Assembly (NCBI GenBank): GCA_016290835.1
Contig: JAEEVG010000026.1
Span: 1-32,919, forward strand
Direction of reading: 5' to 3'
Origin: Bacteroidales bacterium
GTDB taxonomy: Bacteria > Bacteroidota > Bacteroidia > Bacteroidales > UBA932
Length of the DNA stretch: 32,919 nucleotides
A program made the translations under genes and the position numbers. Of the stretch, positions 1,746 to 12,338 are shown piece after piece. The notes beneath the pieces are model-generated. The model saw nothing but the letters and a program-made list of their open reading frames with translations. It was not told where the DNA came from and made no database searches. Every line of letters begins with the position of its first letter. Within the stretch, counting starts at the first letter, position 1.

Positions 1746-2771
1746 ATGGCATTTTTTTCCCAAGAGTTGGCCATCGATCTGGGCACGGCCAACACAGTAA
1801 TCCTCAAGGACGACGGGGTCGTCCTCGACGAGCCCAGCATCATCGCCGTAGAGTCAAAGACCGGCAAACTGGTGGCGATAGGCAAGGAGGCGCAGTTGAT
1901 GGAAGAGAAAACCAATCCGCGCATCTACACCATCCGCCCGATGATGAACGGTGTCATCGCGGACTACGATGCCGCCGAGAAGATGCTCACCGGCTTCATC
2001 AAGAAGGCAACCGGGAGCAAACGGTCGGGACTTTTCGCGAAACGCCTCCGGATCGTCATCGGCGTGCCCGGCGGCGCCACGCAGGTGGATATGCGTTCCA
2101 TCCGTGACTCTGCGGAGCATGCAGGCGCGCACGACCTCTACCTGATCTACGAGCCGATGGCCTCGGCGCTCGGCATCGGCCTGGACGTGACCGCCCCCAA
2201 CGGCAACATGGTCGTGGACATCGGCGGAGGCACGACGGAGATCGCGGTCATCTCCCTGGGCGGCATCGTCGAGTCATCCAGCATTCACGTGGCAGGCAAC
2301 GAACTCACCACGGACATCGTGGATTTCCTGGAGCAGCAGCATAACATCAACATTGGCAGGACCACGGGCGAACAGATCAAGTTCGCGGTCGGGTCCGTCC
2401 TTCCGGAACTGCCGCCCGAGGAGGAGCCCGAAGGCTACCTGGTGGAGGGCAAGAACATCGCCACGGCGTATCCGATGTCTGCAACCATCACCTACCAGGA
2501 GATCTCCTCCTGCATGGACAAGACCATCACCAAGATCGAAAGCGAGATCATCCGCGTCCTGCAGCGCACGCCTCCGGAGCTCTATTCCAACATCGTCCGC
2601 AACGGCATCTGGCTGGCCGGCGGCGGGGCCTTGCTGCGCGGCATCGCCAGGCGATTCACCGACCGCGTCAACATCAAATTCCAGGTGGCCGAAGACCCGC
2701 TCAAGGCCGTCGCCCGCGGCACCTGCCTCGCCCTAAAAAAAACCGAAGAATACCCTTTCTTGATGAAGTAG
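1746..2771 (+). CDS. mreB: Rod shape-determining protein MreB
   Basis: A 341-aa actin-like ATPase that polymerises under the inner membrane and guides cell-wall synthesis. Visible landmarks are the phosphate-1 loop (AIDLGTANTVI, near residue 8), TIRPMMNGVIADYDAAEKML, VIGVPGGATQVDMRSIRDSA, the phosphate-2 motif VVDIGGGTTEIAVISLGGIV, and the adenosine-binding IWLAGGGALLRGI near the C terminus. Length is normal for MreB. The N-terminal MAFFSQ is short and gives a weak membrane tip. The gene sits 11 bases after the duplicated protease-like gene and is followed by a 323-base intergenic region, not by mreC and mreD, so it is uncoupled from the usual operon here. Confidence 0.95.
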   Translation: MAFFSQELAIDLGTANTVILKDDGVVLDEPSIIAVESKTGKLVAIGKEAQLMEEKTNPRIYTIRPMMNGVIADYDAAEKMLTGFIKKATGSKRSGLFAKRLRIVIGVPGGATQVDMRSIRDSAEHAGAHDLYLIYEPMASALGIGLDVTAPNGNMVVDIGGGTTEIAVISLGGIVESSSIHVAGNELTTDIVDFLEQQHNINIGRTTGEQIKFAVGSVLPELPPEEEPEGYLVEGKNIATAYPMSATITYQEISSCMDKTITKIESEIIRVLQRTPPELYSNIVRNGIWLAGGGALLRGIARRFTDRVNIKFQVAEDPLKAVARGTCLALKKTEEYPFLMK

Positions 2772-2800: not shown

Positions 2801-2932
2801 CAGATCCGCACAAAAACGCCTTTCTGCGGCTTTCTGGCTGCGGATCTCCCCCCTTTTTTCGCCCGTTCAGCCCGATTCCAGGGGGAGATCCGCACGCAGA
2901 GCGGCCCCAGAGCCCGATTCCCTGCGGATCTG
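2801..2932. repeat. Four-site palindromic element (AGATCCGCA quartet)
   Basis: The 9-mer AGATCCGCA occurs at 2802-2810 (direct), 2839-2847 (inverted), 2886-2894 (direct) and 2923-2931 (inverted), with gaps of 28, 38 and 28 nt. The inner pair extends to a perfect 14-bp inverted repeat (2839-2852 with 2881-2894) and the outer pair to 10 bp (2801-2810 with 2923-2932). A nested cruciform or RNA fold is therefore favoured over two side-by-side hairpins. An 11-bp direct repeat, AGCCCGATTCC, lies at 2869-2879 and 2911-2921. It may end mreB transcription, but its geometry matches the unlinked element at 11816-11943, which argues for a repeat family. Confidence 0.85.
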
Positions 2933-3066
2933 TCACCCCTCTGACAGCCTCCCCTGCTGTTCATTTCTATGAACATCTTTTGCACCGCGTAAGTGATTGA
3001 TTTTCAGCAGACGCAAAAGATATCAGGAAAGTATTAACAATGCCATTTTTCAGCAGTCAAAACGCT

Positions 3067-3074
3067 TATCTTTG
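3067..3074 (+). promoter_or_regulatory. Bacteroidetes-type -7 box for dnaB
   Basis: TATCTTTG fits the TAnnTTTG -7 consensus of Bacteroidetes and lies 20 bases before the dnaB ATG. No clean TTTG -33 element is seen; a T-run at 3045-3049 occupies roughly that place. Confidence 0.6.
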
Positions 3075-3094
3075 CTGAAAAACTACCCCCTATT

Positions 3095-4600
3095 ATGACC
3101 AAGGAAACCAGCAAATACAACAGCCGGAAGGCCCGGGGCGCGGATACCCTGACGGCCGTGGCGGGCGAGACGGGGCACCGGCCCCCGCAGGCGCCGGAGG
3201 TGGAGGCCGCCGTGATCGGCGCGATGATGATCGACGACGAGAGCGTCTTCAAGGCCGTCGAAGCCCTGAAGGAGAAGTGCTTCTACAACCCCAAGCTCCG
3301 GCTCATCTTCTCCGCCATCGTCGGCCTCTTCCGCGAGCGGACGGCCGTGGACCTCGTGACGGTCACGGAACGCCTCCGCCTCGACGGCACGCTCGCGACG
3401 GTGGGCGGCCCGGCGCTGCTCGCCGAGCTCACCGACCGGGTCAGCAGCGCGGCCAACATCGATTTCTACATCAAGATCCTCCAGCAGAAGACCATCCAGC
3501 GCGACCTCATCGAAGCAGGCTACGGCATCCTCAGGAACGCCTTCGACGAGACCTGCGAGGTGGAGCGCCTCATCGAAGAGACGCAGTCGTCGGTTTTCCA
3601 GGCGGTGCAGGGCAATATCACCGCCGGCTACGTGGAGATCGGCGACGCCGTGAACCGTTCCCTGCAGCGCATCCAGGCGCAGCAGGAGGCGCACGGGCTC
3701 ACCGGCGTGCCGTCGGGCTTCCCTTCCCTGGACGAGATCACGATGGGCTGGCAGCCCGGAAATCTGATCATCATCGGCGCGCGCCCGTCGCACGGCAAGA
3801 CCGCCCTCGGCCTGAACATGGCCCGTTTCGCCGCCGTGGAGCGGGGCATCCCCGTTGCCTTCTTCTCCCTGGAGATGACGGATATGGAACTGGCCGACCG
3901 GCTCATCGCCACGGAGTCCGGGATCCCCTCCGAGAAGCTGCGCGGCAGGAAACAAATGGAGCAGAAGGACTGGCAGCACCTGGAGCAATCCATCCGCCGG
4001 CTGGCTGTAGCGCCCCTTTACATAGACGAGACTTCCGCGCTCAGTATCACGGAGTTCAGTTCGAAGGCCAAGCGGATGGTAATCGAGAAGGATGTGAAGA
4101 TTATCTTCGTGGATTATCTGGGGTTGATGACGGCGCCCGCGACGAACGCCTCCTACCGGGAGCAGGTGATCTCGGAGGTGTCGCGCCAGCTGAAGGCCAC
4201 GGCGAAGGAGCTCAATATCCCCGTGGTCGCGATGGCGCAACTGAACCGCAACATCGTGGGGCGGCTGAACTCGTCGATGGGCCGGCCGCAGCTGAGCGAC
4301 CTGCGGGACTCCGGTTCCATCGAGCAGGACGCGGACATCGTGATCTTCATCAACCGCCCGGGGCTGATGGGCAAGAGCGAGGATCCGGACGATGCGGAGC
4401 TGCTCATCGCGAAGAACCGCGCCGGACGCCTCGGGGAAATCGATATGCGTTTCATCGGGGACCAGGTCCTCTTCGTCGAAGACACGCGTTCCCTGGCCGA
4501 CCTTGCCCGGAATATGGAGAAAACGCCGGCGCCGCCCGCCTTCGATCCTTTCGCAGGATTCGGGGGCGTCAACCCGGAAGATTTCTATAAAAATGCGTAA
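3095..4600 (+). CDS. dnaB: Replicative DNA helicase DnaB
   Basis: A 501-aa hexameric 5'-3' helicase that unwinds DNA at the replication fork. The N-terminal domain (about 30-150) includes APEVEAAVIGAMMID and the primase-interacting helical region. The C-terminal RecA-like ATPase starts near residue 200 with GVPSGFPSLDEITMGWQPG, then Walker A GARPSHGKT (about 228-236), Walker B IIFVDYLGLM, the H3-like MAQLNR and SDLRDSGSIEQDADIV. The usual Gly-Lys-Thr loop is intact, although SHG is less common than the AMG or SMG seen in many relatives. A Lys/Arg-rich tail of about 25 residues precedes the N domain. The ADP-ribosylglycohydrolase gene follows 12 bases later on the same strand. No intein is present. 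Confidence 0.96.
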   Translation: MTKETSKYNSRKARGADTLTAVAGETGHRPPQAPEVEAAVIGAMMIDDESVFKAVEALKEKCFYNPKLRLIFSAIVGLFRERTAVDLVTVTERLRLDGTLATVGGPALLAELTDRVSSAANIDFYIKILQQKTIQRDLIEAGYGILRNAFDETCEVERLIEETQSSVFQAVQGNITAGYVEIGDAVNRSLQRIQAQQEAHGLTGVPSGFPSLDEITMGWQPGNLIIIGARPSHGKTALGLNMARFAAVERGIPVAFFSLEMTDMELADRLIATESGIPSEKLRGRKQMEQKDWQHLEQSIRRLAVAPLYIDETSALSITEFSSKAKRMVIEKDVKIIFVDYLGLMTAPATNASYREQVISEVSRQLKATAKELNIPVVAMAQLNRNIVGRLNSSMGRPQLSDLRDSGSIEQDADIVIFINRPGLMGKSEDPDDAELLIAKNRAGRLGEIDMRFIGDQVLFVEDTRSLADLARNMEKTPAPPAFDPFAGFGGVNPEDFYKNA

Positions 4601-4612
4601 CTTTAGGCCATT

Positions 4613-5473
4613 ATGTTAGGAGCACTTACCGGAGACACCGTAGGCTCGGCTTACGAGTTCTGCAACACGAAGGACTATAACTTCAGGCTTTTCCTGTCGG
4701 AGAGCGCATACACGGATGATAGCATCATGACGATGGCGGTCGCGGACTGGCTGCTGCGTGACCCGTCGCACAGCTATCAGGCGCTGGAGGATAGCATGGT
4801 GGAATTCGCGAAGAACTGCCCTTGCCCGATGGGCGGGTACGGGACCGGATTCTACCGTTGGCTGTTCTTCCCGAAGGAGCTGTGGGTGTTCGACGACAAG
4901 TATGGCGCACTCCCCTACAAGTCCACTGCCGGACGGCATCCCTACGGTTCCTGGGGGAACGGTTCCGCAATGCGCGTGAGCGCGGTGGGCTGGTTCTTCG
5001 ATACGCTGGAGGAGACGGAGCGCGTGGCGAAGATTTCTGCCGAAATCACGCACAACCATCCGGAGGGGATCAAGGGGGCGCAGGCGACGGCCGCGGCCAT
5101 TTTCCTGGCCCGGACGGGCAAGTCGAAGCAGGAGATCTGCGCGTACATCGAGGAGCGTTTCGGCTACGACCTGCACAAGACCTGGGAGTACTGGCATCCG
5201 ATCTACGGCTGGGAGGACAGTTGCCAGGGAACGGTGCCGCAGGCGCTGATCTGTTTCCTGGATTCGACGGATTTCGAGGATGCGATCCGCAAGGCGGTGT
5301 CGCTGGGCGGGGATTCCGACACGCTGGCGTGTATCACCGGCGGCGTGGCGGAGGCCTTCTACGGCGGCGTGCCCGAAGCCATGGCCTCCCGCGTCCTGGT
5401 GAAGGTCCCTGCGGCCTTCAAAAAGATCCTCGACGCGATGAAGAAGAATACGGCCTACGATTGTTTGGTTTGA
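4613..5473 (+). CDS. ADP-ribosylglycohydrolase (DraG/ARH family)
   Basis: A 286-aa member of the family that removes ADP-ribose from proteins or small molecules using a two-metal centre. The metal ligands are visible: Asp8 in LTGDTVGSAYE, Thr34-Asp35-Asp36-Ser37 in AYTDDSIMT, and the C-terminal GGDSDTLACITGG around residue 231. No signal peptide is present, so it is cytoplasmic. It starts 12 bases after dnaB and has no promoter of its own in that gap, so it is probably read from the dnaB transcript. No matching ADP-ribosyltransferase gene is in the window, so the substrate is unknown. Confidence 0.9.
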   Translation: MLGALTGDTVGSAYEFCNTKDYNFRLFLSESAYTDDSIMTMAVADWLLRDPSHSYQALEDSMVEFAKNCPCPMGGYGTGFYRWLFFPKELWVFDDKYGALPYKSTAGRHPYGSWGNGSAMRVSAVGWFFDTLEETERVAKISAEITHNHPEGIKGAQATAAAIFLARTGKSKQEICAYIEERFGYDLHKTWEYWHPIYGWEDSCQGTVPQALICFLDSTDFEDAIRKAVSLGGDSDTLACITGGVAEAFYGGVPEAMASRVLVKVPAAFKKILDAMKKNTAYDCLV

Positions 5474-5495
5474 TGGGGGTTTTTGCTTATTTTTG
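5464..5495 (+). promoter_or_regulatory. Promoter for the GH43-like lipoprotein gene
   Basis: TTTG at 5464-5467 and TATTTTTG at 5488-5495 are separated by 20 bases, a near-ideal Bacteroidetes -33/-7 pair. The box ends 25 bases before the ATG at 5521. The -33 element overlaps the end of the preceding coding region. Confidence 0.7.
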
Positions 5496-5520
5496 AACTT
5501 GAATCAATTACGATAGCCTT

Positions 5521-6537
5521 ATGCATCTGAAATCCCTGGCTTTCCTGACCGTCGCCCTGGCGGTCCTGGCGGTTTCCTGCGGCCCCCGCACGAAGCAGGC
5601 GGAGCGCATCCGGGCCGACTCCCCGCTCTACATCGACCCCGTTTACAACGGTTCCACCGACCCGATGGTGTGCTACAACCCCAACACCAAGACCTATTAC
5701 ATGTACTACACCAGCCGGCGCTCCAACGTGGAGGGACTGGGCGGCATCGAGTCCGTGCACGGTTCGCCCATCGGCATCGCCGAGTCCCGCGACGGCGGCG
5801 CCTCCTGGACCTACCTGCGCGACGCGGACATCGACTATGCCCCGGATCCGAATCCGACCTACTGGGCCCCGGAAGTCATCTGGCACGAAGGGAAGTTCCA
5901 CATGTACCTGACCTACGTGCCCGGCATCTTCGACACCTGGGAGCACCCGCGCGACATCGTCCACCTGACCAGCACCGACGGCATCTCCTGGCACACCGAG
6001 TCCGTCCTCGACCTGGCCGTGCGGAAGGTCATCGACGCCTGCGTGGCCCAGCTCCCTGACGGCACCTGGCGGCTCTGGTACAACAACGAACCCGACGGCA
6101 AGACCATCTTCTACGCCGACAGCCCGGACCTCTACCACTGGACCGACAAGGGGAAGGTGCTCTCCATCGAGACCCGGGGCGAAGGCCCGAACGTCTTCAC
6201 GCTGGGCGGGAAGACCTATATGATCGTGGATGAGTGGAAGGGGCTCTCCATCTTCACGACGGAGGATTTCGACAATTGGACCAAGCAGGAAGGACGCTAC
6301 CTCGTCGATGGCATAGATGGCCAGATGAGGGGCAACCACGCCGACGTGGAAGTCGTAGACGGCCACGCTTATATGTTCTATTTCAGCGGCATCCGCGAGA
6401 CCGATCCCGAAACCGGGCAGCCGGTCCGCCGCCGGGGCTCCGCCGTATATGTGGCCGAACTGATCCAGGCCGAGGACGGGACCCTGTCCTGCGACACCAC
6501 CCAGCCCTGCCTGATCAACCTCTGCGCAGACAAGTAA
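5521..6537 (+). CDS. GH43-like five-bladed beta-propeller glycosidase, lipoprotein
   Basis: A 338-aa product with a lipoprotein signal: hydrophobic residues 5-18 end in AVSC with Cys20 as the lipidated residue. The mature part shows repeated propeller-blade patterns: STDPMVCYNPNTKTYYMYYT with candidate base Asp47, YWAPEVIWHEGKFHMYLTY, WRLWYNNEPDG and HAYMFYFSG. These are typical of the GH43/GH32/GH117/GH130 superfamily. Families in this clan cannot be separated by eye and the substrate is unknown; an arabinan- or xylan-type side chain is common for GH43. It has its own promoter and is followed 26 bases later by a small lipoprotein gene. It is probably exposed in the periplasm or on the outer membrane. 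Confidence 0.8.
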   Translation: MHLKSLAFLTVALAVLAVSCGPRTKQAERIRADSPLYIDPVYNGSTDPMVCYNPNTKTYYMYYTSRRSNVEGLGGIESVHGSPIGIAESRDGGASWTYLRDADIDYAPDPNPTYWAPEVIWHEGKFHMYLTYVPGIFDTWEHPRDIVHLTSTDGISWHTESVLDLAVRKVIDACVAQLPDGTWRLWYNNEPDGKTIFYADSPDLYHWTDKGKVLSIETRGEGPNVFTLGGKTYMIVDEWKGLSIFTTEDFDNWTKQEGRYLVDGIDGQMRGNHADVEVVDGHAYMFYFSGIRETDPETGQPVRRRGSAVYVAELIQAEDGTLSCDTTQPCLINLCADK

Positions 6538-6563
6538 TAGACAACTAATCCCAAATAACAGTT

Positions 6564-6917
6564 ATGAAAAGACTTGCTATCCTGGCCCTGACGGCCATTC
6601 TTTCCCTCCTGATCGCCGCATCCTGCAGCCCGACCTCCTTCTCGGCGAAGTTCCGCATCTTCGTGAACGAAGTCGAGGCCCGCTGCCCCAAGTACACAGC
6701 CGAAGACTGGGAGGAGGCGAACGCGACCTACGACCGCCTGATGGAAGAATTCAAGAAGAAGCGCCTCACGATGTCCCGCTCCGAAGTCCAGGAGGTCAAA
6801 GACAACATGGTCCGCTTCCAGGAGCTCGAAGCCAACACCCCCGTCCAGACCGAAAGGGAGCCGGAGGTCGAGGTGAACGTCAAGGAAGTGGAAGACTTCC
6901 TCAAAGGCAACCGCTGA
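6564..6917 (+). CDS. Small helical lipoprotein, paralogue of the gene at 13169-13570
   Basis: A 117-aa product with a lipoprotein signal ending IAASC (Cys21). The mature chain is charged and helical, with a core that reads FVNEVEARCPKYTAEDWEEA and continues through VQEVKDNMVRF. The same pattern occurs in the 133-aa lipoprotein encoded at 13169-13570 (FVDNVEKNYSNYSQEDWEAA), so the two are paralogues. Such small Bacteroidales lipoproteins are usually annotated as hypothetical or DUF proteins; I do not assign a function. The gene follows the GH43-like gene and converges on the dehydrogenase fusion with only 12 bases between the stops. Confidence 0.75.
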   Translation: MKRLAILALTAILSLLIAASCSPTSFSAKFRIFVNEVEARCPKYTAEDWEEANATYDRLMEEFKKKRLTMSRSEVQEVKDNMVRFQELEANTPVQTEREPEVEVNVKEVEDFLKGNR

Positions 6918-6929
6918 GACCGTCCAGGC

Positions 6930-9566
6930 TCAGCGTTCGAATAGCTTCAGCAGCTTCATTTTCAACTCCCCCGCTTCGCCACCGTAAGGGTGCTCGCGGA
7001 GGGGGAGGTTGAAGCGTGTGCTGCCGCGCAGGACGGTCTGCGGGTGGGTGAATTCCCGGAAGCCCCATTCGCCGTGGTAGGCGCCCATGCCCGAGTGGCC
7101 GGTGCCGTTGAAGGGTACGCCCTTGACCATCATGTGGATGCAGACTTCGTTGATGCAGCCGCCGCCGAATTGCTGGGTGCGCATCACGCGTTCGGCCCAG
7201 CGGATGTCCCGGGTGAAAAGGTACATCGCCAGGGGGTGTTCGCGGTCTGCGATGGTCTCCATCAGCGCATCCACCTCAGCGTCCTTGAAGGGGACGACGG
7301 GCAGCAGCGGGCAGAAGAGTTCGTGCCGGACGATGTGCTCGTCGATGCCCACAGGGTAGATGATCGTGGGGGCGAAGCGGCGGGTCTGCGGGTCGCCGGT
7401 GCCGCCGTGCAGGATGCGGTCGCGATACTCATCGGCGAGCCGGGCGCATTTCTCGTAGGCGGCGTCGGTGATGAGTTTGGGATAGTCGGGGTTCTGCTCG
7501 GCGCTCTCCCCTATCTGCCGGATGAATTCCCGCCGGAGGGCCTCCAGGAAGGGCTCCGCCACTTCTTCGGCCACGGCGATCTGGTTGATGTTGATGCAGA
7601 TCTGGCCGGCGTTGCAGAGTTTGAAGAAGGCGATCTTGCGGGCGGCGTCGGGCAGGTCCGCGTCCTTCCTCACGACGCACCAGTTGCCGGTCTCGCCGCC
7701 GAGTTCCAGGGCCACGGGGGTGAGGTTCCGGGCGGCTTCGGTGAGGACGTGCTTGCCCACCGCCGGGGAGCCTGTGTAGAAAATCTTGTCGAAGCGTTGC
7801 GCGAGGCAGAGGTCGGCCACGTCGTGCCCGCCGTCGATGAGGGTGACGTACTCGGACGGGAAGACTTCGGCGAAGAATTTCTTGAGGGCGGCGGTGCTGG
7901 CGGCGGATTTGCTGCTGGACTTGATCACGACGGTGTTGCCGCCGGCCATCGCCGCGGCCACCACGCCGATGGTGAGCAGGATCGGGAAGTTGAAGGGGCT
8001 GATCACCAGGGAGACGCCGTAGGGCATCTTATAGACTTTGGTGAGCAGGCTCGGGAAGCACATCAGGCCGCTGAAGTGGCATTCGGGGCGGGCCCAGCGG
8101 CGCAGGCCGCGGAGCATTTCGTTGATTTCGACGATGATGGGGCCGACGTCGCAGAGGTAGGCTTCCACGCGGCTGCGGCCGAGGTCCGCGGCGAGGGCGT
8201 CCTCGAATTCCCCCGCGTGGGCGATGACGGCGGCCTTGAGGCGCTTGAGCTGCTTGATGCGCCAGCTGACAGGGAGCGTAGTGCCTGTGCGGAAGAAGCG
8301 CCGCTGGGCGGCCACGATGTCCCGGATGACGGGGTCCGTGTAGGCCGGGGCGTCTTGCCGGTCGGTCCGGGTGACGGTCAGCAGGATCTCTTTGATCTGC
8401 TCGTTGCTGAGGGTGACTGGGGCGGAGTAGTTGATGGAGTCCGCGACGATCATCGGGATCAGTTCATCGTGGTCCCAGGGCCGCACGGGCGGGTCGATCC
8501 GGTCCAGGCCGCACTGCTTCAGCAGGTCCCGGACGGCCTGCAGGAAGGCTTCCGCGGCCTGCTCTTCGGGGGCGTCCTCCGCGGCCAGGGCGCAGTAGCG
8601 GGCCGCGCGGGCGTATTTCCCGCGGCAAGCTTCCCGCTGGTATTCCAGGACGGGCAGGAGCATCAGGGAAATGGCGACGCCGTGGGGCAGGTGGTATTTG
8701 GCACCGATGCTGTGGGCAAAGGCGTGCACATAGCCCGCCAGCTGGGTGTTGATGGCGTTGCCGCCGTACATCGCGGCGCGGCACATCCCCAGACGCGCTT
8801 CCACATTCTCCGGGTCCTGCATGACCACGGGGAGATGCTGCAGGATGAGGCGTATGCCTTCCAGAGAGAGTTTCATATCTTCCTCGTCCGTCTGGGTGTC
8901 GCTGACGACGCCTTCGATGCAGTGGCTGAGGGCGTCCACGGCGCAGGCGGCGGTGACCTGCTGCGGGGCGTGGACGGTGAGTTCGCTATCCAGCACGACG
9001 TGGGTGACGTTCAGCCCGATCAGTACGGTGGAGCCTTTGATGCCCTGCTCGTTCATCACCACGGCACCGACGGTCATTTCGGCGCCGGTGCCGGCGGTGG
9101 ACGGGACGTTGATGACGGGCAGGGAGCCGCCCGGCACGGGCAGGAATTTCAGCAGGAGCATTTTCACCGGGAGGTGGGGCATCTTCACGCCGGCGGCGAT
9201 CATCTTGACGGTGTCCATCACGGAGCCGCCGCCGAGGGCGATGATGGCTTCGGCACCGGTCTCGAGGGCCAGTTTGCGGCCGGCTTCGATGTAGGCGATG
9301 GTGGGCTCGGAGTGGATGTCGGCGTAGGTGGTGAAGCCGATCCCGGCGGCCTGCAGGGAGTCTTCGATGGCCCGGGTGAAGCCGAGCTGGCCGAGGGTGC
9401 GGTCGGTGACCAGCAGGACCTGTTTGTAGCCGCTCTCGCGGCAGATTTCACCGATCCGGGCGCGGGCGCCGTGGCCTTCGGAGACCTCGGGTTCGGGGAT
9501 CGGGATGGCGTGGATGACTTTGCCGGGGAGGCGGTGGATGGTTTTTCTGAGATGATAGGTTTCCAT
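6930..9566 (-). CDS. Iron-type alcohol dehydrogenase fused to class 3-like aldehyde dehydrogenase, reverse of AdhE order
   Basis: An 878-aa cytoplasmic protein. Residues 1 to about 415 are an iron-containing alcohol dehydrogenase: GGGSVMDTVK for NAD(P), STAGTGAEMT, VDALSHCIEG (near 212), and the metal-binding HAFAHSIGAKYHLPHG (about 279-295). Residues about 425-878 are an aldehyde dehydrogenase closest to ALDH3: SPFNFPILLTIG, GNTVVIKSSSKSA, FTGSP-like FYTGSPAVG, catalytic Glu in ELGGETGNW (near 620), catalytic Cys in NAGQICININ (near 656), and the C-terminal PFNGTGHSGMGAYHG. Both active sites look intact. AdhE has ALDH first and ADH second and uses a CoA-acylating ALDH, so this is a separate fusion. 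It may interconvert an alcohol, an aldehyde and an acid with local NAD recycling; the substrate is unknown. The gene begins 6 bases after the GH2 stop, in one operon. Confidence 0.9.
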   Translation of the reverse strand: METYHLRKTIHRLPGKVIHAIPIPEPEVSEGHGARARIGEICRESGYKQVLLVTDRTLGQLGFTRAIEDSLQAAGIGFTTYADIHSEPTIAYIEAGRKLALETGAEAIIALGGGSVMDTVKMIAAGVKMPHLPVKMLLLKFLPVPGGSLPVINVPSTAGTGAEMTVGAVVMNEQGIKGSTVLIGLNVTHVVLDSELTVHAPQQVTAACAVDALSHCIEGVVSDTQTDEEDMKLSLEGIRLILQHLPVVMQDPENVEARLGMCRAAMYGGNAINTQLAGYVHAFAHSIGAKYHLPHGVAISLMLLPVLEYQREACRGKYARAARYCALAAEDAPEEQAAEAFLQAVRDLLKQCGLDRIDPPVRPWDHDELIPMIVADSINYSAPVTLSNEQIKEILLTVTRTDRQDAPAYTDPVIRDIVAAQRRFFRTGTTLPVSWRIKQLKRLKAAVIAHAGEFEDALAADLGRSRVEAYLCDVGPIIVEINEMLRGLRRWARPECHFSGLMCFPSLLTKVYKMPYGVSLVISPFNFPILLTIGVVAAAMAGGNTVVIKSSSKSAASTAALKKFFAEVFPSEYVTLIDGGHDVADLCLAQRFDKIFYTGSPAVGKHVLTEAARNLTPVALELGGETGNWCVVRKDADLPDAARKIAFFKLCNAGQICININQIAVAEEVAEPFLEALRREFIRQIGESAEQNPDYPKLITDAAYEKCARLADEYRDRILHGGTGDPQTRRFAPTIIYPVGIDEHIVRHELFCPLLPVVPFKDAEVDALMETIADREHPLAMYLFTRDIRWAERVMRTQQFGGGCINEVCIHMMVKGVPFNGTGHSGMGAYHGEWGFREFTHPQTVLRGSTRFNLPLREHPYGGEAGELKMKLLKLFER

Positions 9567-9572
9567 GGTTTG

Positions 9573-11450
9573 TTATTTGGGCATCGAGGCGATGACTTTC
9601 CGGTTGACGGTGCGGAGCTGTTCTTCGTCCATTTTCGTTATTTTGCGGTCGTAGGTCATCAGACCGTTGACTTCGCCTTCAACGTCGGTGGTCTGGGTAT
9701 AGACGGCGGCGGAAACGCCTTGCGGGATGGTGCCGATGAGTTCTTCGGCGTAGGCGCTGTATTGGCGGAGGACGTCCTCGCCGCTCTTGTATTCGATGTA
9801 GCCCCAGTTGCGGTCAGTCTGCCATAGGTGGCCTTCGACGGGCCAGCCGATGCCGCCGTATTCCCCGAGGACGTCGATCTGCAGGCCTTCGGAGTTGAAT
9901 TTCATTCTGGGGTTGGGGTAGTTGTGGCTGTCGAAGATGTCGCCGACCGGGTAGGAGTTGCCGCCGGAGGCGGAGTTGATCAGGCGCGTGGGGTCGGCTT
10001 TCCGGGTGAATTCGACGACCTGTTCCGTGTCGAACTGGCACCAGGATTCGTTGAAGGGGACCCAGACGAGGATGGAGGGGTGGTTCCGGAGCTGGGCGAT
10101 GATCTCGCCCCATTCTTTGTAGTAGGTGGCCTTGGCGGTGTCGGTCAGGTTGCGGTCGTCTTCGGGCGAGGCCCATTTGTATTGTACCCAGCGGCCGCCG
10201 CGGGTGCCGCCGATCGAGGGCATGTCCTGCCAGATGGCGATGCCCAGGACGTCGGCCCAGTAGTACCAGCGGGCGGGTTCGACCTTGATGTGTTTGCGTA
10301 TCATGTTGAAGCCAAAGTCCTTGGTCTTGACGAGGTCGAATTTGAGAGCTTCGTCGGTGGGGGCGGTGTAGAGGCCGTCGGGCCACCAGCCCTGGTCCAG
10401 GGGGCCGTACTGGAAGTAGGGTTCGTTGTTCAGGCCGAGGCGTTTGAAGTCCTGGCTGTCGGTGACTTCGGAGCTTTTGCGGAAGGCGGTGTAGCCGCGG
10501 ACCTGGTCGAGGGTCTTGTTGCCCTGCTTGAGGCGGATGTCGAGTTCGTAGAGGGCCGGGGTTTCCGGGGACCAGAGCCGGGGGTTGTCGAGTGTCAGGC
10601 GGACGGGCTCGCCGGGAACGGCTTTGACCGTTGCGACGGGGGCGGTCTCGTTGGGTTTGTCGGCGTCGTAGCCTTCGCGGAGGGCGATTTCGAGGGCGTC
10701 CGCAGGGCCGTCGGTGAAGACAGTGAGTTCGAGGGTGGCGGTGTCGATGTCGGTTCCGGGGCCGAGGTCGGGGACGGCGAGGTAGTCGGTGATGGAGGCG
10801 CCGCGGACGGGCTCGATCCAGACGCTCTGCCAGATGCCGGTGACGGGGGTGTACCAGATACCGCTGGGGTTGGTGACCTGCTTGCCGGAGGGTTGTTCAC
10901 CGCAGTTGGTGCGGTCGAGGACGCGGAGCTTCAGCTGCTGTTTTCTGCCGGGTTTCAGGTAAGGGGTGATGTCGAAGGAGAAGGCGGTGTAGCCGCCGGT
11001 GTGGGTGCCGGCGAGCCGGTCGTTGACATAGACTTCGGCAGACCAGTCAACGGCTTCGAAATTGAGTTTGACGCGGCCGCGGCGCCAGGCGGCGGGGACT
11101 TTGAAGGTGGTAGCGTACCAGAGGGCTTCGTCCGCGCCGACGCGCCGGCCGACGCCCGAGAGGGAGGATTCGATGCAGAACGGGACCAGGATGCGGCCGT
11201 CCCACTGGCCGGGCTGGGGGGCGTCGGCGGGCGTGACGGCGTAGTCCCAGAGGCCGTTGAGGGAGGCCCAGGTTTCGCGTACGAGCTGGGGGCGGGGGTA
11301 TTCGGGGTGAGCGTTGGCCGGGTTAACTTCGGCGGTCCAGGGGGTCTGGATGGGGATCTCGGCAGGGGCCCAGGTGCTTTGATCAATCTGGCTGTTGCAG
11401 GCGGCGGCGAGCAGCAGCGCCGCAGCAGAAAGGGTTATCAGTTTCTTCAT
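9573..11450 (-). CDS. GH2 family glycoside hydrolase, lipoprotein
   Basis: A 625-aa product. The frame extends 7 codons upstream, but the ATG at 11450 begins a clean signal MKKLITLSAAALLLAAAC with Cys18 as the likely lipidated residue. The GH2 domains follow: an N-terminal jelly roll (WASLNGLWDYAVTP, WYATTFKVPAAWRRGRVKLNF), an Ig-like domain, and a TIM barrel. The acid/base Glu is in WVPFNESWCQF (near 466) and the nucleophile Glu in LGEYGGIGWP (near 529), so it should be a retaining beta-glycosidase. The C terminus is short compared with E. coli LacZ. It probably acts outside the cytoplasm on galactosides, glucuronides or similar sugars. It is first in an operon with the dehydrogenase fusion. 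Confidence 0.88.
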   Translation of the reverse strand: MKKLITLSAAALLLAAACNSQIDQSTWAPAEIPIQTPWTAEVNPANAHPEYPRPQLVRETWASLNGLWDYAVTPADAPQPGQWDGRILVPFCIESSLSGVGRRVGADEALWYATTFKVPAAWRRGRVKLNFEAVDWSAEVYVNDRLAGTHTGGYTAFSFDITPYLKPGRKQQLKLRVLDRTNCGEQPSGKQVTNPSGIWYTPVTGIWQSVWIEPVRGASITDYLAVPDLGPGTDIDTATLELTVFTDGPADALEIALREGYDADKPNETAPVATVKAVPGEPVRLTLDNPRLWSPETPALYELDIRLKQGNKTLDQVRGYTAFRKSSEVTDSQDFKRLGLNNEPYFQYGPLDQGWWPDGLYTAPTDEALKFDLVKTKDFGFNMIRKHIKVEPARWYYWADVLGIAIWQDMPSIGGTRGGRWVQYKWASPEDDRNLTDTAKATYYKEWGEIIAQLRNHPSILVWVPFNESWCQFDTEQVVEFTRKADPTRLINSASGGNSYPVGDIFDSHNYPNPRMKFNSEGLQIDVLGEYGGIGWPVEGHLWQTDRNWGYIEYKSGEDVLRQYSAYAEELIGTIPQGVSAAVYTQTTDVEGEVNGLMTYDRKITKMDEEQLRTVNRKVIASMPK

Positions 11451-11455
11451 GATTA

Positions 11456-11463
11456 CAAAAATA
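11456..11463 (-). promoter_or_regulatory. -7 box upstream of the GH2 lipoprotein gene
   Basis: On the minus strand this reads TATTTTTG, matching TAnnTTTG. It ends only 5 bases before the ATG at 11450, so if it is the real promoter the mRNA would have almost no 5' leader. Confidence 0.55.
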
Positions 11464-11624
11464 CGAAACATACGCGGGAATTCCGCGCCCTTCCCCTACA
11501 TAGAAGTATTAAAACACCTCACTCGTCCATGATAAGTTATTGATTTATGAGAGGTAGGGTTAATTCTTCTAAATCTATATTTTAAGTTGGTTTTCCGCCC
11601 GAGAGCGGCGGGAGGAGCGGGCCT

Positions 11625-11651
11625 CCGCCTCGCGGGTGCGAGGCTCGGTGG
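11625..11651. repeat. Left arm block, partner of 12261-12287
   Basis: The block contains the small hairpin CCTCGC-GGGT-GCGAGG. Its inverted partner at 12261-12287 has the same stem with loop GGAT. The two 27-base blocks differ at only two positions, one in the loop and one that changes a G-U pair to a G-C pair. Confidence 0.8.
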
Positions 11652-11740
11652 GGCCCGCGGGTGCGGTGGTGTTCTGCGAGGGGCTGTGGGTCTGGCGGGA
11701 CTGGGGGCACCAGCGCCTCGCTTTACGCGGCTCGGCGCTT

Positions 11741-11787
11741 AGCGGGGCCGCCGCCGAGAGTTCGGCAGGCTCTCGGCGGGCCCCGCT
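11741..11787. repeat. Large hairpin in left arm
   Basis: AGCGGGGCC (11741-11749) pairs with GGCCCCGCT (11779-11787), and GCCGAGAG (11753-11760) pairs with CTCTCGGC (11770-11777), across a 9-base loop. The corresponding hairpin in the right arm is at 12125-12171. Confidence 0.8.
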
Positions 11788-11814
11788 TGCCCGGGCCAAA
11801 TCCCATTCCAGAAA

Positions 11815-11943
11815 CAGGTGTCCACAAAAACGCCATTGTACGCGATATTTGTGGACACCTGTCGGGCTTTATGGCTGGAATCGGCCATTTGAGGGGATAG
11901 GTGTCCACTTTTTTTGCTCCAGAAGGCGATTTTCTGGACACCT
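11815..11943. repeat. Four-site palindromic element (AGGTGTCCA quartet)
   Basis: The 9-mer AGGTGTCCA lies at 11816-11824 (direct), 11852-11860 (inverted), 11899-11907 (direct) and 11935-11943 (inverted), with gaps of 27, 38 and 27 nt. The first pair extends to a perfect 14-bp inverted repeat (11815-11828 with 11848-11861). The second pair has an added 6-bp inner repeat, CCAGAA/TTCTGG. Order and spacing match the quartet at 2802-2931, although the repeated word differs. Both first sites are followed at once by CAAAAACGCC. Confidence 0.85.
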
Positions 11944-11999
11944 CTCTACAAAATGGAGTCAACGTCCGCTAGAGATAATCTCGGCGGCCTGGAAGTGTA

Positions 12000-12079
12000 C
12001 GAAACGTCCCATAAAATGTCAGGTTACGTGCGTTTTAGGGCTTTTTTGCACGAGACGTCCCTATTTCCGGGACGTCTCG
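12000..12079. repeat. GACGTCCC half-site cluster with hairpin
   Basis: CGAAACGTCCC (12000-12010) and CGAGACGTCCC (12051-12061) are near-identical direct copies. The latter is followed after 7 bases by its exact inverse GGGACGTCTCG (12069-12079), a strong 11-bp hairpin. This cluster sits in the right half of the element where the AGGTGTCCA quartet sits in the left half, but it does not keep the same spacing. Confidence 0.75.
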
Positions 12080-12124
12080 CACACCTAGCCCCTTTTCTGG
12101 GGCCTTCTGGCCCTTTGCCGGGCG

Positions 12125-12171
12125 AGCGGGGGCGGCTGAGAGCCCTCCAAAGCTCTCAGCCGCCTCCCGCT
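12125..12171. repeat. Large hairpin in right arm
   Basis: AGCGGG (12125-12130) plus GGCGGCTGAGAGC (12131-12143) pair with GCTCTCAGCCGCC (12152-12164) plus CCCGCT (12166-12171), with one bulged T and an 8-base loop. It is the counterpart of 11741-11787 on the other strand, with the same outer hexamer and a covarying inner stem. A second hairpin, CCGCCGAGC (12174-12182) with GCTCGGCGG (12191-12199), follows directly. Confidence 0.85.
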
Positions 12172-12260
12172 AACCGCCGAGCCGCGTAATGCTCGGCGGT
12201 GGCGCCCCGATCGCAGCCACTGGCTCTATCGTCGGCTCCACTAACCATCCACCGCGGGAG

Positions 12261-12287
12261 CCGCCGAGCCTCGCATCCGCGAGGCGG
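12261..12287. repeat. Right arm block, partner of 11625-11651
   Basis: This is the inverted, nearly identical copy of the left block (25 of 27 positions). Together they give the ends of the element an unmistakable inverted-repeat relation. Confidence 0.8.
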
Positions 12288-12338
12288 CGACCGCCCCGGC
12301 CCCGCCGCCGTCGGGCGGCAAAGTGACGTGCCAAGGCT

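Follow-up and report, generated by a model that had tools for sequence, protein, structure and literature searches.

REPIN-like elements of common geometry and different stem words, and their RAYT genes, in Bacteroidales

Two four-site elements in the window

We describe two four-site palindromic elements in a 32,919-nucleotide stretch of DNA from a Bacteroidales bacterium (assembly GCA_016290835.1, contig JAEEVG010000026.1, positions 1 to 32,919; hereafter, the window), together with the dispersed repeats and the transposase genes with which they can be associated. Both elements resemble REPINs, that is, inverted doublets of repetitive extragenic palindromic (REP) hairpins, the basic unit of bacterial interspersed mosaic elements (BIMEs). 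Throughout, G followed by a number denotes genomes or species of relatives, C contigs and L stretches of DNA, and the genome from which the window derives is referred to as the own genome.

The first element, of 130 bp, lies at 2802..2931 on the plus strand and contains four copies of the word AGATCCGCA, at 2802-2810(+), 2839-2847(-), 2886-2894(+) and 2923-2931(-), with gaps of 28/38/28 nt. Its first hairpin (sites 1-2; 2802..2847, plus strand) pairs AGATCCGCA with TGCGGATCT across a loop of 28 nt and is followed by a linker of 38 nt (2848..2885), the C-rich and G-rich edges of which lengthen the inner stem to 14 bp when the element folds in the nested manner, whereupon the second hairpin (sites 3-4; 2886..2931, minus strand) stands inverted relative to the first. 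The second element, of 128 bp (11816..11943, plus strand), is built in the same manner from the word AGGTGTCCA, at 11816-11824(+), 11852-11860(-), 11899-11907(+) and 11935-11943(-), with gaps of 27/38/27 nt; its two hairpins, of 45 nt each, occupy 11816..11860 (plus strand; CAAA/TTTG extends the stem to 13 bp) and, inverted, 11899..11943 (minus strand), and the 38-nt linker between them (11861..11898) bears a short hairpin of its own, ATGGC..GCCAT. A covariance model (CM R1), which was built from 36 elements and the matches of which to those 36 are by construction, scores the two elements at 90.5 and 144 bits, respectively, each being itself one of the training sequences.

The order of the sites, their coordinates and gaps, and their identity within each element had been given in an earlier note on this DNA and are exact for both words. 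That note also had the 10-mer CAAAAACGCC directly following the first copy in both elements, and this is indeed the case (2811..2820 and 11825..11834, both on the plus strand); this loop start is a feature of the family, and 5 of the 15 occurrences of the 10-mer in the own genome are, by reading, inside elements of the same REPIN family. Chance as the origin of the common geometry, which the note had rejected, is excluded: a scan of the own genome for this geometry (8-mer words, gaps of 25-33/34-44/25-33, at most one mismatch per comparison) gave 10 matches, 9 of the family and one stray, compared with none in each of 5 Markov-1 versions. The scan, which the note had proposed, covered 772,967 bases, or 29% of the own genome (2,656,203); its matches exceed those in all randomized controls and share a constant spacing. 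The match rate holds for these bases and does not scale to the genome because 20 of the 40 stretches were picked largely for earlier search matches.

Adjoining the 2.8 kb element is an MreB-like gene (window 1746-2771) with a paralogue on contig C13, 62% identical. Among 41 genomes, this gene has two matches at E<=1e-100 in 4, one in 35 and none in 2.

Dispersed copies and the RAYT gene between them

The 11.8 kb element is represented in the own genome by 13 near-complete copies on 10 contigs and by one truncated copy on C39 that has lost its second hairpin; a DNA search with this element returned 35 matches, the other 21 being short or secondary and left out. The copies are inverted REP doublets, multiple and dispersed, and in a crude check of open reading frames (ORFs), 11 of the 14 have no ATG-initiated ORF of >100 aa over the centre, the remaining three (L021, L026 and L027) spanning ORFs of 125-205 aa. 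Among the 28 matches of the covariance model listed for the own genome, counting both strands, there are at least 15 places, including the 13 near-complete copies, the 2.8 kb element and C101:31055-31184, which carries a third, decayed word, AGGTTTACA. The window element is the only place in the own genome with a pair of AGATCCGCA, C39 holding a 22-base match; a DNA search of the own genome with the 2.8 kb element gave one full copy, a short C39 fragment and others that are short or within the element itself. Extended to 81 genomes (own included), the same search gave no match beyond the own genome, and relatives of this element surfaced only via the word-pair pattern and the covariance model.

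On contig C57, exactly between two elements of the family (C57:4475-4617 and 5637-5781), lies a gene for a REP-associated tyrosine transposase (RAYT; C57:4660-5577). Its orthologue in G282, a protein of 309 aa and 68% identity, is likewise enclosed by two complete family elements. The two proteins match the NCBIfam model NF047646, REP_Tyr_transpos, with E-values of 7.8e-6 (own; 25.8 bits, below the curated 80) and 3.2e-9 (G282; 36.8 bits, also below the curated cut-off); among 7 RAYTs compared with NCBIfam, 3 fell below the cut-off and 4 had no match. The RAYTs of this clade are of the HUH/Y1 type, about 305-309 aa in size, with a long C-terminal part; the HUH histidines H50 and H52 and the tyrosine Y109, which by its position in the alignment would be the catalytic tyrosine of RAYTs, are invariant in 10 of 10 aligned members, and the own RAYT and its closest relatives share the motifs THxH and YVLRNG. 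Family elements are found within about 170 bases on both sides of 7 of the 15 RAYTs compared (own, G282a, G112, G209a, G209b, G295 and G296), and the G097b RAYT has one family element close by and another 0.9 kb off.

A REPIN family with its RAYT in this genome is real and not a product of chance, and we are highly confident in the reading that both window elements are REPINs of one Bacteroidales RAYT clade, partnered by the RAYTs. Under this scenario, each half of an element is an imperfect hairpin of ~45 nt in which the word forms a 9-bp stem; the RAYT would recognize such hairpins when the DNA is single-stranded and would insert copies of the doublet elsewhere; and each RAYT lineage would keep its own word, with the geometry staying nearly fixed. 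The sequence itself shows the family, the position of the gene between elements, the catalytic motifs and the correlated divergence of protein and word; cleavage, mobility and the role of the stem word as what the RAYT reads are suggested by analogy with known RAYT biology.

Alternatively, an ordinary DDE transposase could mobilize the elements, which would then be miniature inverted-repeat transposable elements (MITEs) bearing long terminal inverted repeats. The long outer stem of the nested fold is compatible with this possibility, as is the better conservation of the outer sites, which are changed in 4 and 3 of 32 AGGTGTCC copies compared with 10 and 17 for the inner ones. The gene between the elements, however, in the own genome and in relatives, is a Y1/HUH RAYT (DDE genes were not searched by family), and the distance between words correlates with that between RAYTs (see below), which makes MITEs a highly improbable alternative.

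Other RAYTs of the own genome, those on C31, C18 and C52, match PF01797 and were considered as partners and rejected: the flanks of the first two carry other words, and that of the third only a different hairpin. At 12000-12083 of the window, 57 bases past the 11.8 kb element, there is a different repeat (ACGTCCC ... GCACGAGACGTCCC ... GGGACGTCTCGCAC); because much the same sequence flanks the RAYT on C31 (L083), the window appears to hold a second REP-like system. The 11.8 kb element itself is surrounded by a larger G+C-rich palindrome mosaic (window about 11590-12300); parts of this mosaic are found again next to the C31 RAYT and in the vicinity of other copies.

The own genome also harbors more direct-inverted-direct-inverted elements with words like GGTGAAGGTCC/GGGGAAGGTCC (L094:9554-9663, L095:8965-9074 and L096:11723-11826), with a 7-mer spacing of 21/40/21 (15/46/15 in L096). 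Short arrays of CGGGGTG...CACCCCG hairpins (L087:3948-4080, L090:11722-11803 and L100:7105-7186) are located on contigs that also bear AGGTGTCC elements; those in L087 and L090 have the loop CGCCAGAGCCCGATT and proceed in 51-base steps. In other genomes of the genus, RAYTs of G037, G016 and G033 (L109, L116 and L126) are found amid hairpins, in tandem or in pairs, that have words of their own and are spaced differently.

Stem words, folds and RAYT lineages

Elements of the same build and with other words are found in related genomes. At E<=0.001, the covariance model has matches in 27 of 120 genus genomes, 23 of these 27 outside the training set. A geometry search gave 51 matches, 15 of which, namely, 5 elements from the GAGGATTC/GAGAAATC group and 10 matches that are weak and due to chance, were kept out of the alignment, so that the model leans to AGGTGTCC. 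A pair of AGGTGTCC is present in 9 of 300 genomes, with family members in own, G015, G112, G140, G232 and G282; the match in G209 retains the hairpin length and the 38-base linker and may be a decayed member, and those in G088 and G227 differ in loop or length. An exact three-site pattern was found in 22 stretches across 84,980 named species genomes (the own-genome records possibly not included), 20 of them in metagenome-assembled genomes titled Bacteroidales or Bacteroidia, several titled rumen or omasum, and one each in genomes titled Limisphaerales and Clostridiales.

Of the 27 genomes with model matches, 14 supplied 20 stretches, selected by score and spread, that we read; these contain further words such as GGATATCCA, GCGTTTGCA, GCGAATCCA and AGGTGAACA, beside or around RAYTs. 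In G209, one RAYT is flanked on either side by AGGTCTCCA elements and another by GAGAAATCC elements; in G097, GAGGATTCC lies close to the RAYT in one direction and 0.9 kb off in the other, and in G282 it is found beside a second RAYT. The GAGGATTCC group, if read one base further in, has the spacing 30/38/30, as for AGATCCGC, and the geometry of the family is near-fixed at 29-30/37-38/29-30 (8-mer count). Among twelve words listed by hand (leaving out those of G044, G114, G181, G219 and G272), positions 8-9 are CA in all twelve and position 6 is T in 10, position 5 being the most variable; the word of G219, CGATGTACC, ends in CC, without the otherwise constant CA, and the spacing is different in the elements of G219, G181 and G272. 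A tandem array of family hairpins with the word GGAAATCCA and model matches every about 83-84 bases is present in L290 (G148, C105).

Near-constant spacing and four equal sites would also be expected of a double-strand binding array, with a DNA-binding regulator occupying the four sites at fixed helical spacing. The loops between sites 1-2 and 3-4, however, are conserved among the copies too, and the elements flank a RAYT, so that such an array is extremely unlikely. The earlier note had envisaged a factor that recognizes variable words at a fixed spacing; this much is borne out in that a RAYT family is located beside or between elements of near-constant geometry with lineage-specific words, and recognition by these RAYTs would follow from the analogy made above.

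Protein and word distances are correlated, with r=0.46 for 15 RAYTs (permutation p=0.0007) and r=0.31 with one RAYT per word (11; p=0.03), the words having been assigned to RAYTs by hand from the flanks and the set including one fragment, the G315 protein cut at the stretch edge, the short G044 and G295 trimmed at an internal start. The common geometry with different words is thus best read as co-divergence of RAYT and REP. The RAYT with the word AGGTCTCCA (G209a) sits within the AGGTGTCCA group of the tree, as would be expected of a recent word change. More tentatively, and as a reading that is less likely than not, we envisage a readable specificity code in this RAYT clade, in which the geometry and loops are nearly fixed and a stem core of ~5 bases (word positions 3-7, ahead of CA) would be replaced as a unit in each of the four arms upon a change of RAYT, with the extended C-terminal part, and not a GTAG guide, doing the reading.

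A relative of the 2.8 kb element is found in G097, in which an element of the word AGATCCGCA with the same order, gaps of 28/37/28 and one letter changed in site 3 is fused in frame to a RAYT remnant without both ends (L154:1501-1860, C7). The pair of AGATCCGC occurs in 9 of 300 genomes, of which own and G097 hold family members; the other seven were taken as chance because the matched stretches, when read, have no family-like loop. The RAYT fragment of G097 (72 aa) is 54-61% identical to the AGGTSTCCA RAYTs, 58% to the G295 RAYT (AGGTGAACA) and 36-39% to the GAGGATTCC/GAGAAATCC group. The tree places the fragment with the AGGTSTCCA RAYTs (support 0.70), and with these and G295 taken together at a support of 0.98. 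No RAYT of the AGATCCGCA lineage was found in the own genome, which is 94% complete. The best explanation appears to be that a related lineage left the 2.8 kb element behind as an orphan, the RAYT of this lineage surviving, broken, in G097, the RAYT of the AGGTGTCCA lineage being the resident one on C57. The own genome would thus bear traces of two RAYT lineages, and hence two words with the same spacing. The two elements had been called unlinked in the earlier note, which is correct inasmuch as they represent different word lineages.

Each site of an element can pair with either inverted site, and with DNA parameters the nested fold wins in both elements. At 2.8 kb, its energy is -32.2 kcal/mol compared with -26.3 for the side-by-side fold, a difference of 5.9 in the direction that the note had predicted; at 11.8 kb, where the note had the side-by-side fold favored, the values are -29.9 (nested) and -27.9 kcal/mol, a difference of 2.0, so that a preference of the two elements for different folds is not supported. 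The minimum-energy RNA folds are nested as well, for both elements and both strands. Covariation favors neither fold, the support being similar for the two (8 pairs each, with 21 cells and a score of 0.130 for the side-by-side fold and 27 cells and a score of 0.149 for the nested one), as expected of any four-fold palindrome, and much of it rests on few sequences with other words. None of 500 shuffles reached the observed pairs, cells or score; for further pair types, 38 of 500 (side by side) and 4 of 500 (nested) did.

The very stable RNA folds (z of -6.4 to -8.0) and the covariation seen in both folds could suggest that the hairpins act in transcripts, as part of a terminator or of a structured regulatory RNA, with words covarying to maintain the stem. 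We consider this very unlikely given that an Rfam search of the window gave no match, that the copies are spread over ten contigs and that covariation backs both folds.

It is also conceivable that recombination, conversion or hairpin copying equalizes the four sites without a dedicated protein, a process that the earlier note had proposed. The sites are identical or close within elements, in agreement with this proposal, and three copies (L019, L021 and L025) have a changed, still matching inner pair; however, joint changes of two sites are no more frequent than expected for any pair among the 32 AGGTGTCC copies (inner pair, 3 observed compared with 2.0 expected, p=0.31; p>=0.44 for the remaining pairs). 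As the sole explanation, such a process is therefore unlikely, but it may be a secondary one that helps words switch.

Counter-evidence and relation to known systems

Several observations weigh against the assignment of the elements to a RAYT-partnered REPIN family. With respect to mobility, no insertion event was seen, and the three relatives read have other gene orders in the region of the 2.8 kb element, which precludes comparison with an empty site (mreB-dnaB) there. With respect to the proteins, Pfam had no match to the three RAYTs tested (G282, G140 and G088), the own C57 RAYT was missed by the PF01797 search, three further RAYTs of the clade had no NCBIfam match at E 0.1, and a PDB sequence search with the own RAYT matched no solved structure. 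RAYT-like frames were detected by motif scan in 6 of the 20 stretches read, many of which are only about 1 kb long, and G015 and G232 bear AGGTGTCC elements with no close RAYT (best E 2e-10 and 1.7e-12; genomes 77% and 95% complete, respectively). The word of G044 is one letter from AGGTGTCCA, yet its RAYT is only 25-27% identical to that group; the G088 RAYTs, which belong to a wider group, have differently built hairpins; and the GTAG foot is absent from all 144 flanks of the 36 elements, 72 of them inner and 72 outer, the commonest 4-mers of the inner flanks being GGGG and CGAC (20 of 72 each).

REPINs, RAYTs, REPtrons, multiple REP classes per genome and class switching have all been described (PMC6006769, PMC3686654, PMC3116915, PMC3733652, PMC8266576); hairpin and "clover" forms of REPINs are known, the clover having been proposed as the recognized form (PMC3116915), and so are RAYT classes with atypical structures (PMC6006769). 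The family described here is a variant of this known type without the classical foot. With the REP-RAYT systems of Pseudomonas fluorescens, Stenotrophomonas and E. coli, it shares dispersed inverted REP doublets, a RAYT flanked by cognate REPs, REP classes that track RAYT lineages and two alternative folds (PMC3116915, PMC3686654). Unlike classical REPINs, the elements have no GTAG/GTGG foot, their REPs are 45-46 nt long with 9-bp word stems and long loops, the number of near-complete copies is low, and the RAYTs have the extended C-terminal part noted above.

As in TnpAREP subclass 2.6 (PMC6006769), the genes come from Bacteroidetes, and the secondary structures on their flanks are atypical and recur at other places in the genome; as described, however, that subclass is set apart by a size of 179 aa and the motifs NH[LIV]H and YIH[QN]NP, compared with THxH and YVLRNG-type motifs in the larger proteins of the present clade. 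TIRYT genes (TIRtrons) similarly encode Y1 transposases and lie between long inverted repeats, of which dispersed families exist as well (PMC3733652), but each flank here is a two-hairpin doublet with a fixed linker. The TIRYT repeats are reported to bear GGGGWSAS (PMC3733652), of which only GGGG was counted here, with the frequency given above. In the open-licence literature, by titles and the beginnings of abstracts, we found no REPs of this build, which is weak evidence of absence.

Because these RAYTs are missed by, or score too low with, family models (Pfam, NCBIfam), annotation of such repeats is likely to be incomplete in Bacteroidales of the rumen and gut. How RAYTs recognize REPs, and how REP words switch with the RAYT and the hairpins kept matched, are treated as open questions in the parts of the literature covered here. 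With the many related RAYT-word pairs of this genus, in which the geometry is almost constant, recognition of the stem can be told apart from effects of the spacing and the loop. If the specificity code tentatively outlined above is real, at least 11 natural protein-word pairs in one genus would be available for working out how words switch ("orthoswitch").

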